64,000 nt of DNA from Bacilli bacterium (GCA_017477255.1 JAFUXB010000004.1:1-64000), one strand, 5' to 3'; numbered from the stretch's first letter, positions 30,509 to 64,000 are shown. Numbers and translations: made by a program. Notes: generated by a model from the sequence alone, not told the origin.

Positions 30509-30536
30509 TTGACAATTTATATACAAATTATAAAAT
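30509..30536 (+). promoter_or_regulatory. Promoter of the isomerase-MsmK-ROK operon
   Basis: TTGACA (30509-30514) and TAAAAT (30531-30536) are 16 bases apart. The -35 overlaps a possible upstream start codon, confirming that translation begins at 30575. Confidence 0.65.
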
Positions 30537-30540
30537 ATTA

Positions 30541-30557
30541 TTATCAATTATTGATAA
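30541..30557 (+). promoter_or_regulatory. Candidate ROK operator, site 1
   Basis: TTATCAA-TTA-TTGATAA is a 7-3-7 palindrome at the expected transcription start. A second copy (TTATCAA-TAA-TTGACAA) overlaps the -35 of the importer promoter at 38027. The only local repressor that would need both is the ROK protein at 34505; this pairing is inference. Confidence 0.6.
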
Positions 30558-30574
30558 AATTATTGGAGAATAAT

Positions 30575-33287: not shown

Positions 33288-33303
33288 TAGTAGGTGGTTT
33301 AAT

Positions 33304-34500: not shown

Positions 34501-34504
34501 ATTT

Positions 34505-35644: not shown

Positions 35645-35645
35645 T

Positions 35646-38001: not shown

Positions 38002-38026
38002 CTAATTTTTTTCTTTTTAAATATTT

Positions 38027-38043
38027 TTATCAATAATTGACAA
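38027..38043 (+). promoter_or_regulatory. Candidate ROK operator, site 2
   Basis: TTATCAA-TAA-TTGACAA matches site 1 (30541-30557) in both arms except one base and keeps the 3-base centre. It overlaps the -35 box, so binding would block transcription. Confidence 0.6.
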
Positions 38044-38066
38044 AAATAATTTTATTAGTCTATAAT
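38037..38066 (+). promoter_or_regulatory. Promoter of the importer/GH43 operon
   Basis: TTGACA (38037-38042) and TATAAT (38061-38066) are 18 bases apart, 36 bases before the start codon at 38103. The -35 lies within a palindromic operator candidate. Confidence 0.75.
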
Positions 38067-38102
38067 AGAGTTATAGTAAAATATTTCAAAAGGGGTACAT
38101 TT

Positions 38103-39713: not shown

Positions 39714-39718
39714 TTTTA

Positions 39719-41516: not shown

Positions 41517-41525
41517 GGGGTTTTT

Positions 41526-44558: not shown

Positions 44559-44573
44559 AAAGGAGATTAAAAA

Positions 44574-46343
44574 ATGAAAATCAAAAAACTTTTTGCGTTA
44601 ATTTTATCTTTATTTTTTGTAAGTTCTGGTTTAGTCGGCTGTAAAAATAGTGGCCAGGAAAATAACCCTGGAACTCAAGTCGAAGAAGAGTTTAATGTTG
44701 TAGTTGATTCTACAATTACAAACGGAACTGTCGTACCAGACAAATTAAAAGCAAAATATAAGGAAATCGTTACTTTAACCGTCACACCTAATGAAGGCTA
44801 TAAATTAAAGAAAAATTCTTTACTTTGTAATGGTGATTATGTAGAAGACAACCAATTTGAAATGCCAAAGGAAGATGCACATATTACTGCTGAATTTGAA
44901 AAAGTAAGTTATAAAATTTCAATTGGTTCTTTAGAAAATGGTGAAATCGCTGTTAATAAACGTAAAGCTAATTTTGGTGATTTAATCGAGGTTTATATTA
45001 CTCCTGCGGTTGGTTATAAATTAGAAGAAGGATCATTAAAATATGATGATACTCCAATCACAAATAATGCTTTTACAATGCCAGCAAAAGACATTACAAT
45101 TACTGGTAATTTCATTGTAAATACAGATGCTAATATTGGTAATTTAACAATTGGAACAAACACATATAACACAACATCTGGTTTTGATTTAAATAAGGAT
45201 AATTCAACTGATAGAACTGTTCGTGTTGATTCAGATTCTCAAGAATATGCATTCTTAAAGAACTCTGTTGGTAATAATGTTTATGCTAAAACATTTATTA
45301 ATGTTCATGGCAAAGACGAAAACGATGCTTATCCAAGATTTGGACTTGCTATGATTAACGAAAATGATGATGCACTTATTTTTAATGTAGAAGGAAGTAA
45401 TAATTTAACTGGACAACAATCACGTGTTGAAACTGCTGATTATATTAGAAGTGGTTCATACTGCGATAATTTCGTCTGGGGCGCATATATGATGAAAAAT
45501 AATGTTGGATCATATACCGGTGAAAATAAAATGTTGTTTGAAATTATTAAATACGATGGTTATGTATACTTTATGATTAATGAAATTTTAGTTGGTTATA
45601 GAGAATTTAAAGGATTTGATAATGATAGCAAAGTATGTGTTGCTCTTGTTACTATGGCAACACATGCAACATTTACTGAATATGAAGCAACAACTGATTT
45701 AGATTTTATTAAGAGTAAGGTACCATTTGATACAACAGATATGAAATTAGGTAGTGTTACACTTAATAATAATCTATTCGCTTCAACAGCAGGATTTGAT
45801 TTATCAAGCGATCACGCTACTAATAGAAAAGCAAGTGTTGCAGTTGATGGACAACAATTTGCTTTCTTTAGAGGCGTAGCTGGAAAAACTATTTATGCAA
45901 AAGCATCAATTAATGTTACAGGTAAAAAAGCTGGTGAAGCATATCCTCGTTTTGGATTATCATTAATTAATAGTTCAAGATCAACAATTATTTTCAATGT
46001 TGAAGGAAGTAACGAGTTAACAGGACAACAATCTCGTGTTGAGATGGGCACATATAATCTAAATGGTTATGTTGAAGGCTTTACTTGGGGTAAATATATG
46101 TTTGCTAATAATGTTGGCGCATATACTGGTGAAAACGTTTTAACATTTGAAATTATTAAATATGGTTCAAAAATCGCATTTTTGATTAATGGCAATGAGG
46201 TTGGTAAAGAAGAAGTTGCTGGATTTGGTGAAAATGATGAATGTGTTGTTGCTTTAACTACATTTGAAACACATGCAACATTTACAAATTATGAAGCAAC
46301 ATCAAACTCTGAAGAAGTTGCTAAACATGTTTCACTTTCCTAA
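44574..46343 (+). CDS. Lipoprotein with InlB-type repeats and duplicated domain
   Basis: A 589-residue lipoprotein (lipobox GLVGC). Residues ~40-180 contain two divergent InlB-type repeats (GTVVPDKLKAKYKEIVTL; ENGEIAVNKRKANFGDLIEV). Residues ~190-385 and ~388-585 are two copies of a ~195-residue domain that I do not recognise. Both contain AYPRFGL, EGSN.LTGQQSRVE, YTGEN followed by FEIIKY, and THATFT.YEAT. The same domain is at the C-terminus of the GH43 protein just upstream. The beta-rich pattern without catalytic signature suggests carbohydrate binding. GAAAGGAG lies before the start. Confidence 0.75.
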   Translation: MKIKKLFALILSLFFVSSGLVGCKNSGQENNPGTQVEEEFNVVVDSTITNGTVVPDKLKAKYKEIVTLTVTPNEGYKLKKNSLLCNGDYVEDNQFEMPKEDAHITAEFEKVSYKISIGSLENGEIAVNKRKANFGDLIEVYITPAVGYKLEEGSLKYDDTPITNNAFTMPAKDITITGNFIVNTDANIGNLTIGTNTYNTTSGFDLNKDNSTDRTVRVDSDSQEYAFLKNSVGNNVYAKTFINVHGKDENDAYPRFGLAMINENDDALIFNVEGSNNLTGQQSRVETADYIRSGSYCDNFVWGAYMMKNNVGSYTGENKMLFEIIKYDGYVYFMINEILVGYREFKGFDNDSKVCVALVTMATHATFTEYEATTDLDFIKSKVPFDTTDMKLGSVTLNNNLFASTAGFDLSSDHATNRKASVAVDGQQFAFFRGVAGKTIYAKASINVTGKKAGEAYPRFGLSLINSSRSTIIFNVEGSNELTGQQSRVEMGTYNLNGYVEGFTWGKYMFANNVGAYTGENVLTFEIIKYGSKIAFLINGNEVGKEEVAGFGENDECVVALTTFETHATFTNYEATSNSEEVAKHVSLS

Positions 46344-46358
46344 TTTACGGTTAAGTTT

Positions 46359-47294
46359 ATGAGTGAAAAGATTGTTTCAACACTTATTACACAAATCGGT
46401 GATCCTTTTGTTTTACATGCAAGTGATGGCAAATATTACATGTATGCAACAGAATCTGAAAGAGAATGTCGTTTTGATGTGTATGTAAGCGAAAACATTA
46501 AAGATTGGAAAAAAGTTGGTACATGTTATAAACCTACTGAAAGATCATTTGGTTATAAGAATTTTTGGGCACCAGAAGTTGTTGAACACAATGGAAAATT
46601 TATAATGCACTATACTGCTAGATGGAAGAAAAATCATTCATTAAGAATGGGTGTAGCAGTTAGTGATTCTCCATTAGGACCATTTATTGATGTTTATGAT
46701 AATGAACCAATGTTTGATCCAGGATATGCTTCAATAGATGGGGATGTATTTATTGACGATGATGGAAAAGCATATTTATATTTTTCAAGAGATTGCTGTG
46801 ATAACGTTGCTAAAAATGGTGAACACCAAAGCCACATTTATTGCGTAAGACTTACAAAAGACTTATTAAGAACTATTGGAAAACCAAAATTCATTTGTGG
46901 TCCAGATCCTAAATTAGAGCATGAAATGCATGAAAATTTATTTAATGAAGGAAGTTTTAAATGGAATGAAGGACCATTTGTTTTTAAAATAAATGGTGAA
47001 TACTTATTAATGTATTCAGCAAACTTTGTTTGGACTAAATATTATTGTATATGTGGAGCAAAAGCTAAATCACCTTGGGGTCCTTTTGAAAAATATGATA
47101 AGCCAATTGCACAATATATAGAAGGAAAAGTTAGTGGTCCTGGCCATAACTGCGTATTTAAAGATGACAAAGGTCAAATGTATTGTGCTTATCACTGTCA
47201 TACTGATCCAAATTTAGCATGTAATGATAGAAAGTTTTGCATTGATAAATTAGATTATGTTGATGGAAAACTAAAAATGAAAATTACATTATAA
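46359..47294 (+). CDS. Intracellular GH43 glycosidase
   Basis: A 311-residue single-domain GH43 enzyme with no signal peptide, so cytosolic. The triad is visible: IGDPFVL (base Asp), SIDGDVFIDDDGKAYLYF (modulator) and NEGPFVF (acid Glu). GPGHNCVFKD carries the propeller His. It would finish oligosaccharides brought in by the importer encoded just upstream. Substrate is probably an arabinofuranoside or xyloside. It ends the operon; a bidirectional terminator separates it from plsY. Confidence 0.87.
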   Translation: MSEKIVSTLITQIGDPFVLHASDGKYYMYATESERECRFDVYVSENIKDWKKVGTCYKPTERSFGYKNFWAPEVVEHNGKFIMHYTARWKKNHSLRMGVAVSDSPLGPFIDVYDNEPMFDPGYASIDGDVFIDDDGKAYLYFSRDCCDNVAKNGEHQSHIYCVRLTKDLLRTIGKPKFICGPDPKLEHEMHENLFNEGSFKWNEGPFVFKINGEYLLMYSANFVWTKYYCICGAKAKSPWGPFEKYDKPIAQYIEGKVSGPGHNCVFKDDKGQMYCAYHCHTDPNLACNDRKFCIDKLDYVDGKLKMKITL

Positions 47295-50050: not shown

Positions 50051-50170
50051 AATAAACCCCTTTTAAAAGTTTTTTATCTTTTATATTTTATTTTAATGAA
50101 ATAAATATTTCAATAAAGCCATTAAGTTAAAGCTATAAATAAGATACAACTATTTCAATATCTTGATTAA

Positions 50171-50279
50171 AATCTCTCGGAATGAAAAGTCGAAATCATT
50201 CGGAACAAAATCTTAAAATCTCTCGGAATGAAAAGTCGAAATCATTCGGAACAAAAACTTAAAATCTTTCGGAATGAAA
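50171..50279. repeat. 46-bp tandem repeat, 2.4 copies
   Basis: Units at 50171-50216 and 50217-50262 differ at one base, and a partial third unit starts at 50263. Each unit is itself two ~23-bp half-units of the form AAATCNNTCGGAANNAAA. The third unit runs into the ATPase remnant, whose TTTCGGAATGAAA is the probable seed of the repeat. Confidence 0.8.
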
Positions 50280-50448: not shown

Positions 50449-51297
50449 TTATGAACTTCTTTTTCTATAAGAAGAAGGCGAAACACCGACCTCTTTTTTA
50501 AAGACTTTAGTAAAATAATAGATATCTTTATAACCAACTTCATTAGCAATATTTATAATCTTCATATCAGTTTTATTTAATAAAGTCTTAGCGTGATCTA
50601 TTCGTTTTGAAATTATGTAATTAACAGGAGTAACTCCTAATGTAGATTTAAATAAACGAGCAATATAATATTTAGAAAATGGTAGTGTTTCATAATACTT
50701 ATCTAGATCAATTTCTTCAAGATAGTGCTTGTCTAAATAATCTTGTATTTTTTGCACATATTCGTTTGTAGCAGCTTTTTTATTTCCTGATGAGAATAAC
50801 TGAAGTATTTTTAAAATTATTGTTTTAGCAATGCAATTTGTAATATTTGAAGTATAGTTTAATTCTTCATTTTTAGATTCTTGAATAAGTAAATTAAATA
50901 ATTTTCTAAATGTCTTATTATTTGTTCCTGTATGTAAAATATATTCTTCGTTACAGTTTGCAAACATTTTTTTAAGAGGTTCTTTATATTTAACTGCAAA
51001 AAATAAAGCATGCATAATAGTCCCATTATCTGAATATTCTTTATGCATGTTAGAAGGGAAATATAAGATGATATCGTCAGTTTTTGCTTTATATTTTATA
51101 TTATTAATCTCAATTGTTCCTGATCCACTATCAATAAACATTATTTCTAAAAAGGTATGCTTATGTGGATTTAAGTTTTGTTTTTCTAATGCACTAAAAG
51201 TTCCAGTATAATAAGCTTCAATTTTGCTATCTAATGTAGCTAATCTTTTAATTGGATAGTGTCTTCTTTCTTTTGAATCTTGTAAATGAATTCTCAT
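50449..51297 (-). CDS. AraC-family transcriptional regulator
   Basis: A 282-residue regulator. The N-terminal cupin-like sensing domain includes NPHKHTFLEIMFIDSGSG near residue 41, and the C-terminal AraC double helix-turn-helix has YYIARLFKSTLGVTPVNYII and IANEVGYKDIYYFTKVFKKE. Proteins of this type bind a sugar and activate a nearby operon. It is divergent from the kinase-isomerase gene at 51426 and is the evident regulator of the D-arabinan locus. AGAAGG precedes the start. Confidence 0.9.
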   Translation of the reverse strand: MRIHLQDSKERRHYPIKRLATLDSKIEAYYTGTFSALEKQNLNPHKHTFLEIMFIDSGSGTIEINNIKYKAKTDDIILYFPSNMHKEYSDNGTIMHALFFAVKYKEPLKKMFANCNEEYILHTGTNNKTFRKLFNLLIQESKNEELNYTSNITNCIAKTIILKILQLFSSGNKKAATNEYVQKIQDYLDKHYLEEIDLDKYYETLPFSKYYIARLFKSTLGVTPVNYIISKRIDHAKTLLNKTDMKIINIANEVGYKDIYYFTKVFKKEVGVSPSSYRKRSS

Positions 51298-51390
51298 ATT
51301 TTTACCTTCTAATTTGTCTAAAATTGTCCTTAAAAAATAACAAAAAAATCTATTTATATTATAAGGTATCGAGAGTAAAATTAAAGTATA

Positions 51391-51415
51391 AAAGGAAAGG
51401 TCTAAGTTTTTAGAC
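51391..51415 (+). promoter_or_regulatory. Ribosome-binding site followed by a hairpin
   Basis: AAAGGAAAGG (51391-51400) is 25 bases from the ATG at 51426, too far for normal initiation. GTCTAA/TTAGAC (51400-51405, 51410-51415) forms a hairpin between them that would shorten the effective spacing to about 10 bases. This may tune translation of the first gene of the locus. Confidence 0.45.
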
Positions 51416-51425
51416 GAAAAATAAT

Positions 51426-53018
51426 ATGCAAAAATCTATTTTAGTTGTAGGGTCTTTTGTCGAAGATCTTATAGTTCAAACAAGTAAATTTCCTTCAGCT
51501 GGTGAAAGTGTAATAGGAAATAAATTTTCACGTGCTGATGGAGGAAAAGGTGCAAACCAAGCAGTTCAAATTGCTCGTTTAAACACCCCTGTTAAATTAA
51601 TTGGGAAAGTTGGTTCTGATAGTTTTTCAAAAAGCCTTGTTTCTACATGTTTAAAAAGCGGTGTAAACGTTGAAGAAGTTATTCAAGATGAAGGAAATCC
51701 TGGAATTTCTGTTGTTGTTTTAGAAGAAGTTAAAGAAGGATTTCAAAATAGAATAATAATGACTCCTGGAGCAAATAATCGTTTAACTGTAGAAGATGTT
51801 AAATATTTGGAAAACGAAATTGAAAATTATGAAGCAATAGTTTTACAATTTGAAATTCCTCAAGAAGTTAATGATTATTTAGCTGAAATCGCTTATAAAA
51901 AAGGAGTAAAAGTAATTGTAAATCCTGCACCTTATAGAGAAGTAAGTGATGAATTTTTAAAGAATGTTACTTATTTAATTCCAAATGAAACTGAATTTTT
52001 AGGTCTTATTAAATCAAATAAAAATATTGATGAGTTCTCAGAAAACGACTTTAAAGAAGGAGCAAAAATTCTTCTTGATAAAGGTGTTAAAAATGTAATT
52101 ATTACTTTAGGATCTAAAGGATGTTGCATAGCTAATAAAGAAAATTGCCAATGTTTTGAAAGTGTTAAAAATGTTAAGTCTGTTGATCCTACAGCAGCTG
52201 GTGATTCATTTATTGGTGCATTTACTTCATTTTTAAGTCGTGGATATAGCGAAAAAGAAGCAATACTTTTAGCTAATGCAGTTGGTTCATTAACTGTACA
52301 AAAATTAGGTGCTATGCCTTCTTTATGTACACTTGAAGAATTAACTGATTATGTTAAAGGATTAAAATATGCACCATATAAAGGATTATATGCATTATTA
52401 AAGAATAATAATTTTGAATCAGTTGACGTCTTAGATGTATTTAAATCAACTGTTTTATCTGAAATTACATATACTTTAGGCACATTAAATAAAGAATTTT
52501 ATGAAAGTGCATTAGATTTAATTTTAAAAGCAAAAGAAAATGGCAATAGAGTTCATATTACTGGTATTGGTAAACCATCTCACATTGCTCAATATTTTGC
52601 TTCACTTTTCTCATCAACTGGAACGCCAACTTATTATTTACATGGAACTGAAGCAGTTCATGGAAGTTGTGGCCAATTAGTTAGAGGAGATGTAGTCATT
52701 GCTATTTCAAATAGTGGAAATACAAGTGAATTAATCAATACAATTGAAGCTTGTAAAAGAAATGGTTGCAAAATAATTGGAGTAACAGGTAATGAATCAA
52801 GTAAACTTGCAAAATTATCTGATGCCCATTTACTTGCTCATATAGAAAATGAAGGTGGTCCTTTAAATAGAGCACCACGTTCATCAATTTTAGCTGAAAC
52901 TTTAGTTCTTCAAGGCTTATCTGTCTTACTTCAAGAAGATGCTAAAGTTACTCCAAAGCAATACGTTAAATGGCATCCAGGTGGTGCTTTAGGCAAAATA
53001 AGAGATAATGAAAAATAA
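51426..53018 (+). CDS. Ribokinase-SIS fusion: probable D-arabinose kinase/arabinose-5-phosphate isomerase
   Basis: A 530-residue two-domain enzyme. Residues 1-310 are a PfkB-family ribokinase with GGKGANQA (38-45) and the catalytic DPTAAGDSFIGAF. Residues 330-530 are a SIS-domain sugar-phosphate isomerase of the KdsD/KpsF/GutQ type: GIGKPSHIAQYFASLFSSTG, SNSGNTSELI and the diagnostic HPGGALGK at the end. CBS domains of KdsD are missing. KdsD interconverts D-arabinose 5-phosphate and D-ribulose 5-phosphate, so the fusion would phosphorylate D-arabinose at C5 and isomerise the product. Each family is clear; the sugar is inferred from the neighbouring GH183 and GH172 genes. It heads the operon. 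Confidence 0.85.
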   Translation: MQKSILVVGSFVEDLIVQTSKFPSAGESVIGNKFSRADGGKGANQAVQIARLNTPVKLIGKVGSDSFSKSLVSTCLKSGVNVEEVIQDEGNPGISVVVLEEVKEGFQNRIIMTPGANNRLTVEDVKYLENEIENYEAIVLQFEIPQEVNDYLAEIAYKKGVKVIVNPAPYREVSDEFLKNVTYLIPNETEFLGLIKSNKNIDEFSENDFKEGAKILLDKGVKNVIITLGSKGCCIANKENCQCFESVKNVKSVDPTAAGDSFIGAFTSFLSRGYSEKEAILLANAVGSLTVQKLGAMPSLCTLEELTDYVKGLKYAPYKGLYALLKNNNFESVDVLDVFKSTVLSEITYTLGTLNKEFYESALDLILKAKENGNRVHITGIGKPSHIAQYFASLFSSTGTPTYYLHGTEAVHGSCGQLVRGDVVIAISNSGNTSELINTIEACKRNGCKIIGVTGNESSKLAKLSDAHLLAHIENEGGPLNRAPRSSILAETLVLQGLSVLLQEDAKVTPKQYVKWHPGGALGKIRDNEK

Positions 53019-53028
53019 GGAGAAGATT

Positions 53029-54408
53029 ATGAAAACAAGAAGTTTATCAAAATTTATCGTTCCAGCTTTATTTGTTGTAGCTTTAACTGCTGGTTGTAAA
53101 AGCAAAAGTAAAGATCCAGTCGAAGAAGGCGCAACTATTATTACAATGTATTTAAGAAACTTTGAAGACTGGTCAAATGAATACATGAACAAAAGAGTTA
53201 AAGAATTTAATAGCAATATGGAAGATGGAATTCAATTAAGTGTTAAATTCTTTGAAGATGAAGCATATACTGATGCTTTTAAAGTTGCTAAAGAAAATGG
53301 TTCAGCTCCTGATATTTTTATGTGTTCTTATGGAAACATTTATCATGACGTAGTTGAAACTGGTGATGGAGTACCATTAAATGATTTAATTAAACAAGAA
53401 TATATCGATGATATTTCAGATAACATTAAACCAATGGTTACATATAATGATAAAGTTTATGGTTATCCTCAACTTAGTGAACCAAGTAGTATTTTCTTCT
53501 ATCGTAAAAGTATGTTAAATACTGCTGGAGTAGCAAGTGCTCCTTCAACTTGGGCTGAGCTTTTAGAAGCTTGTAGTAAAATTAAACCTACACTTAAAAG
53601 AGGACAATATTGTGTTGGAATTCCAATTGGAAGTGCATTAAGTTGGTCAACTTATGGTCTTCAATATAATTTAACTGGTGGTTTAGCTTTAAACGATGAC
53701 TGGACTCAAAGTAGAGTAGGAACAGAAGAAGGATTTAAAGATATTGCTGGTTTATGGTATGACCTATATGGAAATGGTTATGTACCAAATGGTGCAATTT
53801 CTCCAAAAGGAAGTTATAACGATATTATCGAAGGTATGATGATGGGTAAGGTTGCTATGACTTTTGCTGGATCTTGGTCAATTGCTGAAATTATGCATAC
53901 TTATAGTGATTTAGCTAGTGATGTTGGAGTTTCAGTTATTCCAACTAAAGATGGAAATACATCAAAAGTAACTGCATCTAATGGTGGATGGACTTATGCA
54001 ATTTCATCACAATCTGATAAAGAACATCAACAAAAAGCAGCAAAAGTAATCGAATGGTTATTTGCTGAAAGTCCAGAAAGAACTGCTGGATTCTTCGAAG
54101 CCGCTTATTATTCAAAAGCCGCTGTTACTAATTCAGTAAAAGCTTATATTAGCGAACATGTCGAAGATAATTTAAAAGAATGGACTAATGTTATTAATGA
54201 TGTTGCTTCAAAAGCAATTCCTGAAGCTACATATCCTTGGTCAATTTCAGTAGCAGTTGGTACTATTTTTGAAACTTGTGGATTAAATGCAGATTTAAAT
54301 AAAGGTGAAAGTTATAAAACTACAACAATAAATAATGCAATTAAAACTGCAGATGATTCAATTAATGCAATTATTCATAGTTCGTCTTGGGAAGGAAAAC
54401 CATTCTAA
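53029..54408 (+). CDS. Sugar ABC transporter substrate-binding lipoprotein
   Basis: A 459-residue family 1 solute-binding protein with lipobox ALTAGC. EEGATIITMYLRNFEDW opens the mature domain, and GMMMGKVAMTFAGSWSIAEI near residue 280 is the usual signature. It would capture D-arabino-oligosaccharides released at the surface. Start: ATAAGGAGA at 53014-53022 points to ATG 53029, 10 bases after the kinase stop. It is followed by two permeases but no ATPase. Confidence 0.88.
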   Translation: MKTRSLSKFIVPALFVVALTAGCKSKSKDPVEEGATIITMYLRNFEDWSNEYMNKRVKEFNSNMEDGIQLSVKFFEDEAYTDAFKVAKENGSAPDIFMCSYGNIYHDVVETGDGVPLNDLIKQEYIDDISDNIKPMVTYNDKVYGYPQLSEPSSIFFYRKSMLNTAGVASAPSTWAELLEACSKIKPTLKRGQYCVGIPIGSALSWSTYGLQYNLTGGLALNDDWTQSRVGTEEGFKDIAGLWYDLYGNGYVPNGAISPKGSYNDIIEGMMMGKVAMTFAGSWSIAEIMHTYSDLASDVGVSVIPTKDGNTSKVTASNGGWTYAISSQSDKEHQQKAAKVIEWLFAESPERTAGFFEAAYYSKAAVTNSVKAYISEHVEDNLKEWTNVINDVASKAIPEATYPWSISVAVGTIFETCGLNADLNKGESYKTTTINNAIKTADDSINAIIHSSSWEGKPF

Positions 54409-54417
54409 TAAATTTTT

Positions 54418-55344
54418 ATGATTTATACAGAAGACAAATTTCAATTAGTAGACAAAAAGCGCCACAATAGATATAAATATCGTGGACAAACAACAGCATA
54501 TTTAATGCTTCTTCCAGCTTTTGTTTTGCTTAGTATTTTTGTTATTCTGCCTTTAATCTTAGCTATTATAAGAAGTTTTCAAGATTATAATACTAAAGCT
54601 TTTGTAGGATTTAGTAATTATGTATATCTATTTGAAATGGATACATTATTTTATAAATCTTTCTTAACAGCTTTACTAATGACAACGATAATTTCTGTAA
54701 TTTTACTTGTTATTTCATTTGGTTTTGCGCTTGTTTTAAAAGCAATGGATAACAAATTTGGGAAACTAGTAAAAGTTTTAATTTATGTTCCTTTCTTTAT
54801 TTCAGGAATTATTGCTAGTGTTATATTTAATTTAATTTTTAATTATGGAGGAGGACTTATTTCAAGTATTTGTGTTTTACTTGATAAAGATCCAATTTCA
54901 TTTACAAATGATACAACTCTTGCATATATTTCAATTATTGTTCCTACAATATGGCTTGGATTTGGATATAACACGCTTGTAATGTATGCAGGACTTATTA
55001 ATATTCCAGAAGATTATTATCAAGCAGCAAATGTTGATGGAGCAAATTGGTTCCAAAAATTATGGTTTATTACAATACCAAATATGAGGAATTATATTGT
55101 TTTACTTGTAATTAATATGGTCACAGGTTATATGCAAATGATGGAAATTCCAATGATGATGACTGGTGGAGGACCATTAAATACAACATTAACACCTGTT
55201 TTATATTTATTTAATTCATTTAGAGATCCAAGTAGACCAGATAATGTCACAATTGCTGGAGCCATTTTAATTATGATTTTTATTATGGCAGTTAATATAT
55301 TTGTTTTTAAAACAATTAAAACAAGAAGAAGTGAGGATGTTTAA
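54418..55344 (+). CDS. Sugar ABC transporter permease (MalF/UgpA type)
   Basis: A 308-residue six-helix permease. The EAA coupling loop is DYYQAANVDGANWFQKLWFI near residue 200. It forms the importer with the next gene and the preceding binding protein. No strong ribosome-binding site is visible, so translation probably depends on the upstream gene 9 bases away. It should dock on a shared MsmK ATPase. Confidence 0.9.
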   Translation: MIYTEDKFQLVDKKRHNRYKYRGQTTAYLMLLPAFVLLSIFVILPLILAIIRSFQDYNTKAFVGFSNYVYLFEMDTLFYKSFLTALLMTTIISVILLVISFGFALVLKAMDNKFGKLVKVLIYVPFFISGIIASVIFNLIFNYGGGLISSICVLLDKDPISFTNDTTLAYISIIVPTIWLGFGYNTLVMYAGLINIPEDYYQAANVDGANWFQKLWFITIPNMRNYIVLLVINMVTGYMQMMEIPMMMTGGGPLNTTLTPVLYLFNSFRDPSRPDNVTIAGAILIMIFIMAVNIFVFKTIKTRRSEDV

Positions 55345-55345
55345 T

Positions 55346-56188
55346 ATGAATAAAAGAAAAGTTATTAAAACATTAATACTTTCATTAATTTGTTTAATTG
55401 TTGTTGCAATTATTCTTTTCCCTATAATTTGGATGCTTCCTGCTGCATTTAAAGGAAAAGTAGAGATTTGGGCTCTTCCAAATACTTGGCTTCCAAAAGT
55501 TTTTAAATTTGATAATTTTGAAAAAATATTTAGTGATAACTTAATGAATGATATAAGCTTTGTTTCTTCACTTGGAGCAACAAGTTTAGTTAGTGTTATT
55601 GCTGTTGTTTGTTCACTTATTGTAAATATGTTTGCAGCTTATGTATTTGCAAACTTTGAATTTAGAGGGAAAAATTTCCTTTGGTATTATTTCCTTATTA
55701 CGATGTTTATTCCAGGAATTACAATTTTATTAACTTCAATTAGAGTTGTTTCTGTATTAAAAATGACTGATACAATCGCTGTTTTAATTATTCCTGGTTT
55801 AGTTAGTGCTTATAATATTTTCTTCTTTAGACAATTCTATTTTGGAATTCCTAGAAGCTTAGAAGAAGCTGCAATTATTGATGGATGTTCAAGATTTAGA
55901 ATATTCTTCAAAGTGTTTTTGCCAATGAGTGTTACTCCAATGGTTATTATTGGAGTCAGTGTATTTATGGGTTATTGGAACTCATTTATGTGGCCAACTT
56001 TAACTATTGTAAATAATTCAGCAATAGCCCAAGTTATGCAAGTAATTAGACAATTAAATAGTACATATTCTGGAGAATATGGAGTTGTTATTGCTGCTAC
56101 ATTAATTTCAATTTTAATTCCTTTAACTTTATTTACTATATTCCAAAAGAAAATTATTGCTGGTATTGCAATTAGTGGACTTAAATAG
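55346..56188 (+). CDS. Sugar ABC transporter permease (MalG/UgpE type)
   Basis: A second six-helix permease of about 280 residues. EAA loop: SLEEAAIIDGCSRFRIFFKV; C-terminus GIAISGLK. GAGG at 55333-55336 fits ATG 55346, the base after the previous stop; earlier in-frame ATGs at 55301 and 55337 are less suitable. GH172 follows after 9 bases. Confidence 0.88.
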   Translation: MNKRKVIKTLILSLICLIVVAIILFPIIWMLPAAFKGKVEIWALPNTWLPKVFKFDNFEKIFSDNLMNDISFVSSLGATSLVSVIAVVCSLIVNMFAAYVFANFEFRGKNFLWYYFLITMFIPGITILLTSIRVVSVLKMTDTIAVLIIPGLVSAYNIFFFRQFYFGIPRSLEEAAIIDGCSRFRIFFKVFLPMSVTPMVIIGVSVFMGYWNSFMWPTLTIVNNSAIAQVMQVIRQLNSTYSGEYGVVIAATLISILIPLTLFTIFQKKIIAGIAISGLK

Positions 56189-56197
56189 GAGGTCAAT

Positions 56198-57304
56198 ATG
56201 GATTCAACAAATATTACAAATATCTTTAAAACATTAAATTTCAAAAGAAAAAGATTTTCAAGTTATGATAGAAAAGGTGGTAATGACGATAGATTCTATG
56301 TTAAACCACATGAAACTATGACTTTTGGCGAAATTGATAAGCCAGGAGTTGTTAGACATATTTGGATTACTATTAATAACATCATGGATGATGTTTGGGA
56401 AATAGAAAAAAATGCTTTAAGAAAGGTAGTTTTAAGAATTTATTGGGATGATCAAAAAACTCCAGCAGTTGAAGCTCCTTTAGGTGATTTCTTTGGAATG
56501 GGTCATGCAATGTGTCATAACTTTGTTAGTGTTCCTTTACAAATGTCACCTGAAAATGGAAGAGGTTTTAATTCATGGTGGCCAATGCCATTTAAAAAAG
56601 CAAGATTTGAAGTAACTAATGATTGTAATAACGTACTCGTTTTATATTTCTATATTGATTATGAAGAAAGAGAAGTTGATGAAGAAATGAGATTCCATGC
56701 AAGATGGAGAAGAGTATGTCCAACTAAGGGAATTAGTGAAGAAAATAGACATGAAGATAATTTATTCTATTGTCATGGTGGAGAAAATGTCGATGGTAAG
56801 GACAATTTCTTAATTTTACATACAACTGGTAAAGGACATTATTGTGGTTGTAATTTAAATATTCATAATTTATCTAATTCTACTGAATGGGATTGGGTTG
56901 GTGAAGGTGATGATATGATTTTTATCGATGGTGATAAACTTCCTACACTAAATGGAACTGGAACTGAAGATTATTTCAACACTTCCTGGTGCCCAACTCA
57001 AGAATATAATGCCCCATATCATGGTGTAATTTTACCTGGAAAAGATAACTGGAAAGGAAAGATAACATATTATCGTTATCATATTTTAGATCCTATTCCA
57101 TTTGAAAAAGAAATTTTAGTGAGCATTGAACATGGTCACGCAAATCATAGAAGTGATGATTTCTCTGTCACAGCATATTGGTATCAAATTGGTGAAGCTT
57201 CATTTAGAGAAGAAATGCCAAGTGTTGAAGAAAGAATGCCTGTAGACGAAGAAATTTTAAAACAAAACAAAATTGTTAAGGAGGACGTTTCTATAGATAA
57301 ATAA
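56198..57304 (+). CDS. GH172 (DUF2961) exo-D-arabinofuranosidase candidate
   Basis: A 368-residue cytosolic protein, with no signal peptide. The DUF2961 jelly-roll core is clear: YDRKGGNDDRF near 23, GPGVVRHIWIT-like PGVVRHIWIT near 49, LGDFFGMGH near 95, then WVGEGDDMIFIDGD and GTGTEDYF. Glu236 and Glu257 are 21 residues apart and fit the catalytic pair of characterised GH172 enzymes. GH172 includes exo-alpha-D-arabinofuranosidases and difructose-dianhydride enzymes; the GH183 neighbours favour D-arabinofuranose. It would release D-arabinose from imported oligosaccharides. AGGAGG precedes the start. Family strong, substrate inferred. Confidence 0.87.
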   Translation: MDSTNITNIFKTLNFKRKRFSSYDRKGGNDDRFYVKPHETMTFGEIDKPGVVRHIWITINNIMDDVWEIEKNALRKVVLRIYWDDQKTPAVEAPLGDFFGMGHAMCHNFVSVPLQMSPENGRGFNSWWPMPFKKARFEVTNDCNNVLVLYFYIDYEEREVDEEMRFHARWRRVCPTKGISEENRHEDNLFYCHGGENVDGKDNFLILHTTGKGHYCGCNLNIHNLSNSTEWDWVGEGDDMIFIDGDKLPTLNGTGTEDYFNTSWCPTQEYNAPYHGVILPGKDNWKGKITYYRYHILDPIPFEKEILVSIEHGHANHRSDDFSVTAYWYQIGEASFREEMPSVEERMPVDEEILKQNKIVKEDVSIDK

Positions 57305-57356
57305 AAAAGGTTAATTAATTTAAAACTATGCACATTATTAAAGAAAGGAGAAAAAT

Positions 57357-59792
57357 ATGTTTAAAAGTGTACTAGGAATGACTTTAGCTGCATTGATAGG
57401 CGTTGGCGCTGCTCATACGGTTCCTCAAAATAATGTTAGAAGAGCTTTTGAGCCATTAGCTGAAACTGTTGATGTATACGGGACACACAATTACTTTACT
57501 GGTGATGGTGGTGTTTTTAACGGAAATGGAAATGCGCTTTTGAAAGATCAAGTTGAGGGTGATATTACTTATACTCGTTTAACTAATGCAAATGGCGCAG
57601 ATAATTGTTATTTATTAATGGACAATGAAGAAAAACATGCAGGAAACTACATCTTCACCGCCAAAATGAGAGTTAGTGAAGGATTCACTGACGAAAATAT
57701 TGGCTTTGGCTTCTGGGCTGGAGGTCGTATTAAAGATACTACTATTTCATCTCAATTAAAAGCAGGTGAATGGACAGACGTTGAAGTAAGATTCGAATTT
57801 AATGAAGATGAAGCAAGCAAAACTGATTCAATTCACATGTGGATTTTACTTGCAGGTGGTCATATCGATTTTTATGATATGCAATTTAGACAACTCTTTG
57901 TTGGTAATTTAGGCGAAAACATCTTCAAAGATGAAGGTTTTGAAAATGTCGATTTATCAGGCGGAGATAGAACTGGTTGGAACGATAGACATAGTGGTGT
58001 TATCGGATGTAAAGCAAATCAACTTCTTTGGACAAGTGAAGGAGAAGGTGATGAGAAAAACCAATTCTTAAGAATGAGATATACTGGAGAAGGAGACGTA
58101 CAATTTGTCGATTTCTGTTCATTCTTTAATGATTATAATGGTTCATGGCCAAAAGGTATTGAAGCTGGCGAATATTATGTTGAAATGGATGTAAGAACAA
58201 ATGATTTATTTGATTCAGATAATGTTGGTTTTGCATTCTATTCAAGTGCAGGTCCAAGAATTGAAAGAGACTTTACTCCACAAGTAAAAGCCGCTAAAAA
58301 AGGTGAGTGGACTCATATTACTTATAGATATCCAGATTTAGGAGTTGAATTAACTCAAGCCTATGCTGATGGTGTCGACACTATTCAATTCTGGGCAAAT
58401 TCAAAAAATATTGTTGGTTGGAATTTAGATATTGATAACGTTACTATTAGAAAAGTAACATTAGCAGTTGATGAAAGACCTGAATTTGACGGTGGCGTCT
58501 ATTCATTCCAATGGGTAGAAGCAGATGATGAAGATGTTGTAATCACTTTAAAAGATTTACATGGTCACGAAGATCTTAAGATTTTATCTGGTGAATATGA
58601 ATTACTTAAAGGTGAAGAATATACTTTATCAGGAAATACTTTAACTATTAAAAAAGAATTTTTAGCTGATTATGACGATGGTGTTCATGAATTTAAAGCA
58701 GTAACAAGTGGTGGTGAAAGAGCATTTACTATCGAAGTTACTCATATTCAAGAAGACTTACCTTCAATTGAAGATTATGAATTAGAAGAAACTGTCTTTG
58801 GCGGTGACTTCAAGGATCTTGATGTTGGTTATAGAATGAGTGCAGATCAAACTCAATATGCTTGGGGTGCTGTTTCTCAATATGATGATGGCGGTTTAGT
58901 CATTGAAGAAACTGATGGAAGCCGTGCATTACAATTTAAAAAACCTGCAGATTCAACAAAAGCTTACTCTTCATCATTTGTAATTTATCATCCAGAAAAG
59001 ATCGTTGAAAATACAATCGTAACTATGGAGTTTGATTACAAATATGTTGGAAATGATACAGATGGTGCTGTTAACGTTTCATGGGTTGGTTCAAGTAACG
59101 TTTCATACCACTTAATTAATTTAAATGGTTCTAAGAATGCAAAAACTATCGAACCAGAAGCAAAATATAGACAATGGGAAATTGAATATAGTGAAGCAAA
59201 ACTTGGTTATACTCACGTTAAAGTTTCTATGAGAATTGATGCAGCTACAGTTACTGCAACTAACTCAATTAGATTCTTAATGAAATATAATGGTCAAGAT
59301 ACTCAAGAATTAAGAATTACTAATATGTCCTTAAAGAAATGGGTTAAATCATTAGGAAGCATTACTCCAGTAGAAGCTACATTTAACAAAGCTGAACCAA
59401 AAGATGTCGAAGCAGTCGTTAAATTTGCTGATGGCTTAGAATTATATGCTGTTGCTATTGATGGAAAGACAAACTATATTCCAGAAGAAAATTATGTTGC
59501 AACTCCAGCAAACACTGAAGGCGAATACAAATTAACAATTAAGAAAGAATATTTAGCTACTTTAGCAAACGGTGAACACACTATTTATGTTTCATCAAGT
59601 GAAAATGCAAGTGGCGAATATGCTGAACTTGAATTAAAACTTACAGTTACTGGCGAAGCAAAAGGTGATGAAAAACCAGCCCCAGCTAAAAAAGGTTGTG
59701 GTGGTTCAATCGTTGCTGTCGGTGGACTTACTTGTTTAATTGCTGCAATTGGTGTAGCAGTCGTTGCTCTTAAAAAAAGAGAAGAAAAATAA
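57357..59792 (+). CDS. Secreted carbohydrate-binding protein with X2 modules
   Basis: An 811-residue cell-surface protein without recognised catalytic motif. After the signal peptide there are galactose-binding-like beta-sandwiches at ~40-180, ~190-375 and ~485-665. Two CBM_X2-type modules follow the second and third of them (ILSGEYELLKGEEYTLSGN near 415; AIDGKTNYIPEENYVATP near 700). The C-terminus has KKGCGGS, a membrane helix and KKREEK. A conserved Gly-Cys-Gly-Gly before a C-terminal helix may be a lineage-specific anchoring signal. It probably holds D-arabinan close to the surface GH183 enzymes that follow. AAAGGAG precedes the start. Confidence 0.75.
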   Translation: MFKSVLGMTLAALIGVGAAHTVPQNNVRRAFEPLAETVDVYGTHNYFTGDGGVFNGNGNALLKDQVEGDITYTRLTNANGADNCYLLMDNEEKHAGNYIFTAKMRVSEGFTDENIGFGFWAGGRIKDTTISSQLKAGEWTDVEVRFEFNEDEASKTDSIHMWILLAGGHIDFYDMQFRQLFVGNLGENIFKDEGFENVDLSGGDRTGWNDRHSGVIGCKANQLLWTSEGEGDEKNQFLRMRYTGEGDVQFVDFCSFFNDYNGSWPKGIEAGEYYVEMDVRTNDLFDSDNVGFAFYSSAGPRIERDFTPQVKAAKKGEWTHITYRYPDLGVELTQAYADGVDTIQFWANSKNIVGWNLDIDNVTIRKVTLAVDERPEFDGGVYSFQWVEADDEDVVITLKDLHGHEDLKILSGEYELLKGEEYTLSGNTLTIKKEFLADYDDGVHEFKAVTSGGERAFTIEVTHIQEDLPSIEDYELEETVFGGDFKDLDVGYRMSADQTQYAWGAVSQYDDGGLVIEETDGSRALQFKKPADSTKAYSSSFVIYHPEKIVENTIVTMEFDYKYVGNDTDGAVNVSWVGSSNVSYHLINLNGSKNAKTIEPEAKYRQWEIEYSEAKLGYTHVKVSMRIDAATVTATNSIRFLMKYNGQDTQELRITNMSLKKWVKSLGSITPVEATFNKAEPKDVEAVVKFADGLELYAVAIDGKTNYIPEENYVATPANTEGEYKLTIKKEYLATLANGEHTIYVSSSENASGEYAELELKLTVTGEAKGDEKPAPAKKGCGGSIVAVGGLTCLIAAIGVAVVALKKREEK

Positions 59793-59806
59793 TTAATTAA
59801 CTTTTT

Positions 59807-59839
59807 AGAGGAGAGGTAACCCCTCTCCTCTTTAGGAGG
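59807..59839 (+). promoter_or_regulatory. Intercistronic hairpin beside GH183 ribosome-binding site
   Basis: AGAGGAGAGG (59807-59816) pairs perfectly with CCTCTCCTCT (59822-59831). The same downstream arm can instead pair CTCCT (59825-59829) with AGGAG (59834-59838) of the ribosome-binding site. The two folds exclude each other. The long stem leaves the site free; only T3 follows, so it is not a normal terminator. Confidence 0.6.
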
Positions 59840-59844
59840 AAAAT

Positions 59845-61134
59845 ATGAAACGTAAAGTAAGATTACTATTTTCATTGCTTAGTATGTTATGTTTAGTATC
59901 TTGTGGTGGTAATGAAGGAAATAAAGAAAATCCAAGTGTTAATCCTCCAAGTGGACAAACAGACGATAATGACGATCCATTCAAAGTTATTCCACAAGAT
60001 AGTTGGAATATAGATGATAGTGGAAAAATTAAATACGTAAGAATTAATAGTACAGCTGCAGGATTAAATGCAGCCACAGATACCTCGCAATATGGAGCAG
60101 GTGGAACTGATTTAGGTTTCCCTTGGTATGATGAAGAGGCTAAAAGATTATATGTAACTTTTGGCGATTCTTTTGTACAACACAAAATGGGTGGAGAATG
60201 GAATAGTAATGTTACTTTATATACAAATAATTTTGATTTTACTAAAGGTGTTAAATGGGAAGGAGCACTAAATGGTTCTTTTGGTGCAACTAGACAAATA
60301 ACCCCTGTAACTCAAAATGTAGCAAATAGAAATGGTTGGACTGCATCAAGTTCAGATATTTGTTCACCATTAACATCAACAACAATTCCTACTGGTGGAA
60401 TCGTTGTTAATGGAACTTATTATTTGTTTTATATGGAAGTTTATAAATTTAATCAAGTTCATGAAAGTCCAGGAATTACAAGAAATGGTATGTGGGACAC
60501 ATTTAATTCACGTGTAGTTAAATCAACTGATAAAGGAAAAACATGGACTTTATGCGATAAATTAGTATGGCAATGTCATGGTAGTGAATTTAATTGTTTA
60601 AATGGTGAGCCATTTGCTCAAATTCATCCTCTTGATATAGGAGATGAATATATTTATATTTATGGAATTAAAGGCGGAAGAGAATCTGGAGTTTCAATGG
60701 CTAGAGTTTTAAAAACCAAAATTGAAGATTTTAATGAATATGAATATTTTTGCGGCATAAATAAAACAACAAAAGAACCAACATATAGAAAAGGTGAGCA
60801 AGGTTTAGCTTATATTAAAGGAAAATCAAATTGTTTAGTAATTAGTGGAAAATGTGGAGAATTGTCACTTTCTTATAATCCATATTTTAAAAAATATATG
60901 ATTTTCTATCTTTCAAGCCAATCTCAAATTGTTTATAGATTAATGAATAATCCTTATGATTTTGGTGCACCAGTTTCAATTGCTGGACAAGGAAATATTC
61001 CATTTTTATATGGTGGAGCAACACATGAAGTAATGTTTGATAATAACGGTCAAAGAATGTTTATGTTTATTGCTCAATGGTCAGATAAAATTTATTCAAC
61101 TCATTTAGTAGAAGTAGTATTTAATAAAAAATAA
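59845..61134 (+). CDS. GH183 (DUF4185) lipoprotein, endo-D-arabinanase candidate 1
   Basis: A 429-residue lipoprotein (lipobox LVSC). The DUF4185 five-bladed propeller is recognised from GGTDLGFPWYD (86-96), TFGDSF (105-110), EWNSN (118-122), IPTGGI (181-186), the Asp-box STDKGKTW and CGELSLSYNPYFKKYM. GH183 enzymes cut alpha-D-arabinan of mycobacterial arabinogalactan and lipoarabinomannan from within. Anchored on the cell surface, it would make oligosaccharides for the importer encoded upstream. AGGAGGA (59834-59840) precedes the start. Family strong; activity inferred from family. Confidence 0.87.
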   Translation: MKRKVRLLFSLLSMLCLVSCGGNEGNKENPSVNPPSGQTDDNDDPFKVIPQDSWNIDDSGKIKYVRINSTAAGLNAATDTSQYGAGGTDLGFPWYDEEAKRLYVTFGDSFVQHKMGGEWNSNVTLYTNNFDFTKGVKWEGALNGSFGATRQITPVTQNVANRNGWTASSSDICSPLTSTTIPTGGIVVNGTYYLFYMEVYKFNQVHESPGITRNGMWDTFNSRVVKSTDKGKTWTLCDKLVWQCHGSEFNCLNGEPFAQIHPLDIGDEYIYIYGIKGGRESGVSMARVLKTKIEDFNEYEYFCGINKTTKEPTYRKGEQGLAYIKGKSNCLVISGKCGELSLSYNPYFKKYMIFYLSSQSQIVYRLMNNPYDFGAPVSIAGQGNIPFLYGGATHEVMFDNNGQRMFMFIAQWSDKIYSTHLVEVVFNKK

Positions 61135-61135
61135 T

Positions 61136-62263
61136 ATGAAGATAAAAAGTGTCGAATTTAGGGGTATTTTTAGTGGAGAACTAAGTTATAATGACACCAA
61201 AGCTTATAAAGTTGGTGGGTGTGATTTAGGGTTTCCTTTATATGATGAAAAAAAAGATAAATTATATCTTCTTTTTGGAGACACTTTTCAAGAAAATAAC
61301 TTCAAATATGATTGGCGCAGCAATACGATGTGTTTAATTAAAGAAGTTACTGATGAAGGAAGAATTATAATAGATTATTTCTTAAATAATTTAGAAAATA
61401 AAGCTTATGCATTAAGTGAAGGTCATCATCAAGATGGTTTTGAAATGACTAGAATTCCTACAGGTGCAATTGCAGCAAATAATAATTATTATTTTTATTA
61501 TTTTTCAATGAATAACTGGAAATTACCTCCTGATGAAAGAATGAATATGGGAGGGCTAGTAAAATCTAGTGATGAAGGAAAAACCTGGGAAAAAGTAAAT
61601 GAAGTTAGTTTTTTAAATGATTTAGAAAAAGAAAGCGCTGAAAAGCTATTAAATGAAGATAATAATCAAAAAGAAATTGAAAATAAAATTGATCCAAAAT
61701 CTAAATTAAATCATTCATTTACGCAAGTGTTTCCTAAAAAAGAGGGGGACTATGCATATCTTTTTGCTGAAAGTGGCTATAGAAATAACCCTTTAAGACT
61801 AGGAAGAGTAAAGTTAGAAAATATTGAAAAATATGAAGAATATGAATATTTAGTCGAGTTTAAAGATGGTAAACCAATATTTAAAAAAGGAGATGAAGCT
61901 CGACTTTTAATGCATAATAAAAAAACACCTACGATTTGCGATGGTTTTATGGGTGAAATGAGTGTTATATATAATAAATATTTGAATAAATATTGTTTAT
62001 TCACAGTAACAACTCATCCTGAAAAAGATAAAGAAGATCATGGTTTATTTATGTATTTTAGCGATACAATTTATGGACCATATAAAGACTATATTAAAAT
62101 TTGTTCATATGATGATCCAAGATTTAATATTGAGGGAATGTATGCTCCAATGACTCATGAAAAATTAACAAAAGAAGATGGAAAAATAGTTTATCTTCTT
62201 TTGTCTCAATGGATTCCTCTATATAATCCAATCGTTATGAAAATAGAATTTGAGGAAAAATAA
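61136..62263 (+). CDS. GH183 (DUF4185) protein without signal peptide
   Basis: A 375-residue paralogue that starts directly at the domain (VGGCDLGFPLYDEKKDKL, 26-43), with LFGDTF, DWRSN, IPTGAI, Asp-box SSDEGKTWEKV, and GEMSVIYNKYLNKYC. It has no signal peptide or lipobox, so it should be cytosolic, unlike its three neighbours. It may shorten long imported oligosaccharides for GH172. It begins 1 base after the first GH183 gene and shares its last base with the start of the next gene. The Thr of GGTDLG is Cys here. Confidence 0.85.
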   Translation: MKIKSVEFRGIFSGELSYNDTKAYKVGGCDLGFPLYDEKKDKLYLLFGDTFQENNFKYDWRSNTMCLIKEVTDEGRIIIDYFLNNLENKAYALSEGHHQDGFEMTRIPTGAIAANNNYYFYYFSMNNWKLPPDERMNMGGLVKSSDEGKTWEKVNEVSFLNDLEKESAEKLLNEDNNQKEIENKIDPKSKLNHSFTQVFPKKEGDYAYLFAESGYRNNPLRLGRVKLENIEKYEEYEYLVEFKDGKPIFKKGDEARLLMHNKKTPTICDGFMGEMSVIYNKYLNKYCLFTVTTHPEKDKEDHGLFMYFSDTIYGPYKDYIKICSYDDPRFNIEGMYAPMTHEKLTKEDGKIVYLLLSQWIPLYNPIVMKIEFEEK

Positions 62264-63522
62264 TGAGGTTTTGTAGGTTTTTTTCAATCATTTCTGTGAT
62301 TTTACTTGTAGGTTGTAAGGTAAAAGAGCCAGAAGTATTTTTAAGTTATGATGAAAAAGTTAAAAATATTAAACGTATAAATTATGTAACAGGAGCTGAA
62401 GCTACCTATAATACAATGGAATTTGGCCTTGGAAGTTGCGATTTAGGATATCCTTTATATATTGATGATACAGATGAAATGTATTTTTTCTTTGGAGATT
62501 CTTTTAGTCAAAATAATCAATCAGGAATGTGGAGAAGTAATGTTGTAGGAATTTCAAAAGATTTTGATTTTAGTGATGGTCTTACAATTGATAATGCACT
62601 TTTAACAAGTAGTGGTTATTTAATGGCTATTTATAATGGACATCATATGGATGAAGGAAGTGAAGTTACTAAGATTCCAACTGGTGTAATTTATTTAAAC
62701 AAAACTATTTATATGTATTATTTTTCAATGCATAACTGGAGTTTTTCTAGAGATACCAAAATGAATTATGGTGGTTGTATAAAATCAACTGATTTAGGAA
62801 AAACGCGGGAAAGAATTTATGATTTAACATGGGTTAATTTAGCACCAGACAAATCAAATGGAACAGGAAATAATGCAAATAACTACGAAAATTTAAAAGT
62901 ATTAATAAATGAAGATATAAATAATACTGAAAGAACTGAAGATTTAATTGAACTCGATGATCATTTAGGTTTTGATGCAACTCAAATATTCCCTTATTTA
63001 AATAAAGATGGCTATGTTTATTTATTTTTAGAAGGTGGATATAGAAATAGAAATTTAAAACTTGGAAGAGTCTTACCTGAAAATATTGAAAAATTCGAAG
63101 AAATTGAATATTTACAAGGGTATAAAGATAATGGAGATCCTATTTATATTAAAGGTTATGATGGTTTAAAAGCTTTATATAACAATAAAAATTCAGAAAT
63201 TACTGAAGTTCCTTTTGGAGAAATGAGTGCATTCTTTAATCCTTATTTTAATAAATATTGTTTGTTAACTGTTACAACTGGATCAGTTGATATGTTTATG
63301 TCAGAAAATATTTATGGTCCTTATAAAGAAAAAGTCCATTTATATTCACAAGGTCAAGTACCTGCTCCTATTTCTTCAACAACTGGAGAACCAATTTTAA
63401 GTGCATATGCTCCATTATCTCATGAAAAAATGTTAAAAGATGGTGGAAAGACAATGTATATGCTTACGTCTACATGGATTCCATGCTATAATCCTAGTTT
63501 ATATGAGGTGAAATTTAAATGA
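62263..63522 (+). CDS. GH183 (DUF4185) lipoprotein 2
   Basis: A 419-residue lipoprotein (lipobox ILLVGC). Domain marks are GSCDLGYPLYI, FFGDSF, MWRSN, KIPTGVI and GEMSAFFNPYFNKYC. Its Asp-box reads STDLGKTRE: the usual Trp is Arg, which could be a single T-to-C change (CGG for TGG). An insert of about 20 residues (LAPDKSNGTGNNANN) follows it. It is closest to the cytosolic and last paralogues, so the array arose by tandem duplication. Start and stop overlap both neighbours (1 and 4 bases). Confidence 0.85.
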   Translation: MRFCRFFSIISVILLVGCKVKEPEVFLSYDEKVKNIKRINYVTGAEATYNTMEFGLGSCDLGYPLYIDDTDEMYFFFGDSFSQNNQSGMWRSNVVGISKDFDFSDGLTIDNALLTSSGYLMAIYNGHHMDEGSEVTKIPTGVIYLNKTIYMYYFSMHNWSFSRDTKMNYGGCIKSTDLGKTRERIYDLTWVNLAPDKSNGTGNNANNYENLKVLINEDINNTERTEDLIELDDHLGFDATQIFPYLNKDGYVYLFLEGGYRNRNLKLGRVLPENIEKFEEIEYLQGYKDNGDPIYIKGYDGLKALYNNKNSEITEVPFGEMSAFFNPYFNKYCLLTVTTGSVDMFMSENIYGPYKEKVHLYSQGQVPAPISSTTGEPILSAYAPLSHEKMLKDGGKTMYMLTSTWIPCYNPSLYEVKFK

Positions 63523-64000
63523 AATCAAAGTATTTAAAAATATTCTTAATTCCGCTTTTATCGATTGCATCAATTGTTTCTTGTTCTCAAAATAATGAAG
63601 AAAAGAAAGAAGATGATGAAAAAGTAGAGCCAACTCCAAAACCAGAAGAAGAAAAAACGTCTTTTGATAGACTCGTTGATAATGTAGAAAATTTAGGATT
63701 TGTAACTGGTGATGAGGCTCCTGGAAAAACTACTGATTTTGATGTAGGTGGCACTGATTTAGGCTACCCTTTATATGTTAAAGAACTTAAGAAAACATAT
63801 TTTTTCTTTGGTGATACATTTACAAAAAATCAAACTGGAAACTGGAGAAGCAATGTTGTAGGAATTTCGGAAGATGATAATTTAAGTGATGGTTTGACAC
63901 TTTCTTCTTTTATTTCCTCCTCTGCTGGATATACAACTTTTGCAATTAACGGACACCATGATAGAAATGGAGTGAATGAAGTTACTAAAATTCCAACAGG
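63519..64000 (+). CDS. GH183 (DUF4185) lipoprotein 3, cut by window end
   Basis: 160 codons are visible. The signal peptide ends with lipobox SIVSC, followed by a Glu/Lys/Pro-rich linker and the domain start VGGTDLGYPLYVKELKK (76-92), FFGDTF, NWRSN and KIPT at the window edge. The ATG overlaps the previous stop as ATGA. It is the fourth GH183 gene in a row; the remaining two thirds and any further genes lie outside the window. Confidence 0.85.
   Translation, partial: MKSKYLKIFLIPLLSIASIVSCSQNNEEKKEDDEKVEPTPKPEEEKTSFDRLVDNVENLGFVTGDEAPGKTTDFDVGGTDLGYPLYVKELKKTYFFFGDTFTKNQTGNWRSNVVGISEDDNLSDGLTLSSFISSSAGYTTFAINGHHDRNGVNEVTKIPT

Follow-up and report, generated by a model that had tools for sequence, protein, structure and literature searches.

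A putative alpha-D-arabinan utilisation operon in a Bacilli bacterium and its proposed kinase-first route for D-arabinose

We analysed a 64,000-nt stretch of DNA from a Bacilli bacterium (GCA_017477255.1, JAFUXB010000004.1:1-64000; hereafter the window), which lies on contig C7 of the genome labeled G000, by calling open reading frames (ORFs), searching the window proteins against Pfam and running profile searches over the genome contigs. At its end stands an operon for a sugar importer, enzymes of the glycoside hydrolase families GH172 (DUF2961) and GH183 (DUF4185) and a fusion of a PfkB-type kinase with a SIS domain, and its putative role in D-arabinan utilisation is the subject of this report. 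All the genes named in a first-pass annotation of this DNA were found among the ORFs and Pfam matches, and its family assignments were borne out by the matches in Pfam and the Protein Data Bank (PDB). The genes are as follows (window positions unless a contig or locus is named).

50449-51297, minus strand, divergent: AraC-family regulator (HTH_18 1.9e-20, AraC_binding 9.2e-6)
51426-53018, plus strand: PfkB-SIS fusion (PfkB 3.8e-60, SIS 9.7e-23)
53008-54408, plus strand: substrate-binding lipoprotein (SBP) of an ATP-binding cassette (ABC) sugar importer (SBP_bac_8 5.8e-29; lipobox recognised by eye)
54418-55344, plus strand: ABC importer permease A (BPD_transp_1 4.9e-14)
about 55334-56188, plus strand: ABC importer permease B (BPD_transp_1 1.7e-13)
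56198-57304, plus strand: GH172, without signal peptide (PF11175 5.2e-82)
57357-59792, plus strand: predicted surface glycan-binding protein (CBM_X2 2e-16, two stretches)
59845-61134, plus strand: GH183a, lipoprotein (PF13810 2.1e-52)
61136-62263, plus strand: GH183b, without signal peptide, predicted cytosolic (PF13810 8.5e-44)
62263-63522, plus strand: GH183c, lipoprotein (PF13810 1.9e-42)
63519-64000, plus strand: GH183d, lipoprotein; full ORF C7:63519-64787 (3.6e-52 in the genome search)
C7:69671-70819, minus strand on C7, beyond the window in a convergent unit: GH183e, a fifth GH183, without signal (copy in the related genome G095 at L063:4195-5457)

Consecutive plus-strand genes are spaced by -44 to +52 bases, so that the earlier description of an almost gapless locus on one strand holds for them but not for the AraC gene, which is on the opposite strand. 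Likewise, the four GH183 genes counted earlier are in the window, the fourth being cut by its end, but a fifth lies past it on the other strand. On C7 the operon continues beyond the window with genes for an ATPase, a small lipoprotein and a membrane protein, and the convergent unit that follows holds a second ATPase of the MalK/UgpC type together with GH183e. The genome G095, assembled from a horse-faeces metagenome and belonging to the same family but another genus of the Bacilli, has a complete counterpart of the locus, with unchanged gene order and protein identities of 49-86%, implying that the locus is not a chance arrangement. The G000 assembly is 837 kb long and 53% complete, and absences in G000 alone therefore mean little. 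Its contigs C3 (70000-121355) and C7 (36184-87539) are identical but for two differences over at least 51,356 bases, and were therefore counted as one locus; two separate copies, which ten DUF4185 matches might have indicated, were rejected in favor of a probably redundant assembly. One of the two differences turns GH183a codon 259 from CAA on C7 into TAA on C3, and the duplication reflects either an error of assembly or a redundant contig that carries a strain variant.

The catalytic acids of both hydrolase families are kept, as the first-pass annotation needs them to be. A profile made from 32 GH183 proteins matches EndoMA1, an endo-D-arabinanase of solved structure (PDB 8hhv), at 4.6e-61 and aligns its Asp33, Asp51, Arg198 and Glu243, the roles of which are described in PMC10509167; the corresponding residues of GH183b are D30, D49, R216 and E274. 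Both aspartates and the arginine are invariant in all 32 proteins and the glutamate is present in 30, the position being Asn solely in GH183e of G000 and G095, while GH183a, b, c and d retain all three essential acids of EndoMA1 (Asp, Asp and Glu). Because the E243A and E243Q variants of EndoMA1 are nearly inactive (PMC10509167), we expect GH183e to have impaired activity or to be a binding protein instead of a cutting enzyme; it may be a pseudoenzyme or a copy of altered specificity found in both genera. Inspection for lipoboxes marks GH183a, c and d as lipoproteins, and GH183b, GH183e and GH172 lack signals, in agreement with the lipoprotein GH183s and the cytosolic GH183 and GH172 claimed earlier. 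Related operons also hold signal-less GH183s, the GH183 tree requires at least three changes of location, and a search for GH183b relatives on plasmids or phages gave no match.

In GH172, E236, E257 and D258 correspond to E233, E254 and D255 of DgGH172c and are invariant in 14 sequences. At the specificity position, where a residue blocking the hydroxymethyl group of fructofuranose would separate alpha-D-arabinofuranosidases from alpha-D-fructofuranosidases, the protein has Cys265, a cysteine as in DgGH172c; ExoMA1 has Asn253 and alphaFFase1 has Gly299 there. In one related genome (G470), a GH172 of the ExoMA1 type with Asn at this position takes the place of the DgGH172c type, which also points to alpha-D-arabinofuranose. 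Our GH172 is predicted to be an intracellular exo-alpha-D-arabinofuranosidase.

We propose that the fusion is a D-arabinose 5-kinase joined to a D-arabinose-5-phosphate isomerase. Its best PDB matches are ribokinases on the one hand and phosphosugar and D-arabinose-5-phosphate isomerases on the other, and in an AlphaFold model (pLDDT 80) the first, kinase half matches ribokinases. The SIS residues that match Lys59, His88, Glu111, Glu152 and His193 of KdsD, its putative active-site residues, are invariant in 18 SIS sequences. The SIS half scores below the cut-offs of the NCBIfam KdsD and GutQ equivalog and KpsF subfamily models (117.1/505, 94.3/481 and 125.3/203.7 bits), and Pfam finds no CBS domains in the fusion. 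A Kdo-8-phosphate synthase above cut-off was found in none of 13 genomes (G000 and 12 relatives), so that the isomerase is unlikely to serve the making of Kdo and this role was rejected; Rpe, D-ribulose-5-phosphate 3-epimerase, is present in 12 of the 13.

Full-length GH183 genes were rare and patchy in family-, order- and class-wide searches for related loci. A search of related genomes, as proposed earlier, shows the gene order from SBP through permeases A and B, GH172 and the surface protein to GH183 to be common to 13 genomes of the class; G470 departs from it in that GH172 follows GH183, and for G222 the sequence examined stops within the SBP gene. Most of the operons have an AraC-like gene at their head; no such gene was recognised ahead of the G317 operon, which is instead followed by a LacI-like gene. 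SIS and PfkB genes occur in ten of the 13 genomes, fused in G000 and G095 only and separate in eight, and are replaced in the other three (G317, G378 and G526) by L-fucose isomerase (FucI) and an FGGY kinase. In the one of these three operons tested, both proteins score above the NCBIfam cut-offs for L-fucose isomerase and ribulokinase. Searched genome-wide, fucose isomerase is found in all three operons that lack SIS and PfkB and in one of the ten other genomes, outside the operon (one-sided exact probability 0.0035, uncorrected for kinship). The transporter tree implies that the module changed at least twice, and one family (f19) contains both kinds of module. The SIS half of the fusion falls in a different clade from the separate SIS genes of the operons, so that recruitment of the kinase-first route may have occurred on more than one occasion, a reading limited by midpoint rooting and long branches.

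L-fucose isomerase accepts D-arabinose, and ribulokinase of the E. coli type accepts D-ribulose. The three FucI-FGGY operons thus read as a route from D-arabinose through D-ribulose to D-ribulose 5-phosphate, and PfkB plus SIS reads as a route from D-arabinose through D-arabinose 5-phosphate to the same product. This swap is an argument for D-arabinose as the substrate and for a kinase-first action of the fusion, and it supports the earlier suggestion that the fusion converts D-arabinose into D-ribulose 5-phosphate.

Gene content, gene order, conservation of catalytic residues and module swapping are all observed. We consider it likely that the locus is an alpha-D-arabinan utilisation operon in which the fusion acts as proposed; D-arabinan is very probably the substrate, and passage through D-arabinose 5-phosphate, kinase first, is probably the route. 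The surface lipoproteins GH183a, c and d would cut the D-arabinan chain, assisted by the membrane-anchored CBM_X2 protein, and the importer made of the SBP, permeases and ATPase would bring in the oligosaccharides. In the cytosol, GH183b would shorten these and GH172 would release D-arabinofuranose. The PfkB half would then phosphorylate D-arabinose, and the SIS half would isomerise the resulting D-arabinose 5-phosphate to D-ribulose 5-phosphate, which would join the pentose phosphate pathway via Rpe.

Several points count against this interpretation, beginning with the fact that every activity, transported species and route in it is inferred. The GH172 family includes alpha-D-fructofuranosidases, and our protein has its best bit score with alphaFFase1 (253.9, vs 212.3 with DgGH172c); with a GH32-like gene downstream at C7:76988, this would suit an alpha-D-fructofuranosidase in a locus for a fructan-like or difructose anhydride substrate. 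However, the pocket cysteine is like that of DgGH172c and not like Gly299 of alphaFFase1, the FucI and FGGY kinase of homologous operons would be unneeded for fructose, and no action on fructans is known for GH183, making a fructofuranosidase locus highly improbable.

A second point is that no GH116 (PF04685) was found above cut-off in G000 (53% complete) or in the 12 related genomes (each at least 90% complete), the 13 together giving two sub-threshold matches. The beta-D-arabinofuranose caps may therefore remain in place, or may be absent from the natural substrate. Mycobacterial D-arabinan ends in beta-D-arabinofuranose, and D-arabinofuranose motifs also occur in lipopolysaccharide (LPS) and pili (PMC10115798), so that the glycan might be another alpha-D-arabinofuranose glycan, such as an LPS O-chain, a pilin glycan or gut corynebacterial wall fragments, and not mycobacterial arabinogalactan or lipoarabinomannan (LAM). 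On the other side, all soluble GH183 enzymes tested in PMC10115798 act on arabinogalactan or LAM, and GH116 subfamily 4 may escape PF04685, of which the two weak matches were seen. We regard such another glycan as a possibility, if a somewhat doubtful one.

The kinase raises a third point. It scores 291.3 bits, just under the cut-off of 299.65 of the ribokinase equivalog TIGR02152, the ribokinase pocket residues D14, G40, K41, N44, E143 and D260 are kept, and no pocket residue fixes D-arabinose over D-ribose. The attempt to read kinase specificity from the pocket was given up as not diagnostic, because the bacterial Asn is not kept in human ribokinase either. Within a D-arabinan locus, the kinase could thus be an ordinary ribokinase and the SIS half could act on another compound, D-arabinose leaving by another way or not being the growth sugar. 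However, a ribokinase needs no SIS partner, ribokinase paralogues are encoded separately in the genome, and SIS and PfkB adjoin in eight further GH183 operons while three have FucI and the FGGY kinase instead. We therefore find an ordinary ribokinase unlikely and retain the kinase-first fusion as the preferred explanation.

The AraC regulator adjoins the operon in G095 too (49% identity), and other AraC-type regulators stand at the equivalent place in several homologous loci. The surface protein has a signal peptide, CBM_X2 domains and a C-terminal membrane anchor, and a homologue occurs at the equivalent place in 12 related loci; a structure model made from two sequences had a mean pLDDT of 45 and was not used. 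A KKGC(G/K)G motif followed by a hydrophobic stretch and lysines ends this protein (57357-59792) and other large secreted proteins (C7:86569-89631, L063:15427-17907, L067:14347-16833), and may be a shared surface-anchoring signal. Upstream of the AraC gene, between it and the gene of a GH43 lipoprotein, lies a tandem repeat (50167-50279; 46-base unit, 2.5 copies, 97% matches). Farther upstream, at 30509-47294, is a second sugar operon with a GatZ/KbaZ-like protein, an SBP, permeases and two GH43 proteins, which does not adjoin the GH183 operon in G095.

Adjoining PfkB and SIS genes without GH183 also occur in Erysipelotrichaceae, Treponema and Lachnospiraceae (loci L101, L102, L105, L106, L111-L113 and L117, around position 10000). 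Several of these clusters include a DapA-superfamily aldolase, an RbsD/FucU mutarotase or a TRAP or ABC transporter, some of the names coming from sequence reading alone, and the aldolase of one scores above the N-acetylneuraminate lyase cut-off. Lyases of this type are able to make Kdo from D-arabinose and pyruvate (PMC4016182), and the clusters may therefore be Kdo-catabolic, releasing D-arabinose. It is quite possible, and we suggest it tentatively, that PfkB and SIS together form a module of general use in bacteria for the catabolism of free D-arabinose via D-arabinose 5-phosphate, both in D-arabinan operons, where it was exchanged with fucose isomerase and ribulokinase at least twice, and in Kdo-degrading clusters, where a NanA/DapA-type aldolase would split Kdo into pyruvate and D-arabinose. 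In Candidatus Caccousia (L107:1017-3855), outside the Bacilli loci studied, an ExoMA1-like GH172 gene directly adjoins coding sequence for PfkB and SIS.

The envelopes of mycobacteria and corynebacteria have D-arabinan as an indispensable component, and the known consumers of this polymer are few. The locus adds a small-genome, gut-type lineage of Bacilli to the predicted D-arabinan eaters, and its stand-alone enzymes could serve as tools on LAM and arabinogalactan. It further predicts D-arabinose catabolism through D-arabinose 5-phosphate, a compound that we otherwise know as a precursor of LPS and capsule, and the swap of two non-homologous modules makes this prediction directly testable on a single fusion protein.

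The first-pass annotation saw the locus as an ABC-importer-based counterpart of the known SusCD-type loci. It is not the first of its kind, since such a locus, with GH183, GH172, GH116, an isomerase and a kinase, was published in 2023 for Microbacterium arabinogalactanolyticum (PMC10509167). That polysaccharide utilisation locus (PUL) resembles ours in its four GH183s, GH172, ABC importer with SBP_bac_8 and downstream metabolic genes, and in its plan of endo cleavage outside, import and exo cleavage inside. It has GH116 and an isomerase and kinase for D-arabinose, whereas the Bacilli locus has the PfkB-SIS fusion, no GH116 found, a DgGH172c-like GH172 and two signal-less GH183s, one with E243 replaced, in a Bacilli host. 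The cluster thus holds the content of a Gram-positive D-arabinan PUL (GH183, GH172, ABC importer and D-arabinose conversion genes) except GH116. PUL42 of Dysgonomonas gadei (PMC10115798) also combines GH183 with GH172, and the Bacilli GH172 pocket is closest to its DgGH172c, but it is a Bacteroidota PUL with three GH172s, two GH183s and an abundant predicted fucose isomerase; a putative GH116 in it is noted in PMC10509167. The isomerases KdsD, GutQ and KpsF share the SIS domain and the same putative active-site residues, whereas the fusion has no CBS domains, is joined to PfkB and sits in a catabolic operon of genomes with no Kdo synthase above cut-off. The fucose isomerase and D-ribulokinase route has the same start and end compounds, and in three related genomes it is encoded in the same operons, but it isomerises first, via D-ribulose, whereas the fusion is proposed to phosphorylate first, via D-arabinose 5-phosphate. 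A literature search, in which subscription journals were thinly covered, found no catabolic route that joins a D-arabinose kinase to a D-arabinose-5-phosphate isomerase. The type of operon is thus already known, and what seems to be new here is its last step, a kinase-first conversion that is swapped with isomerase-first enzymes.

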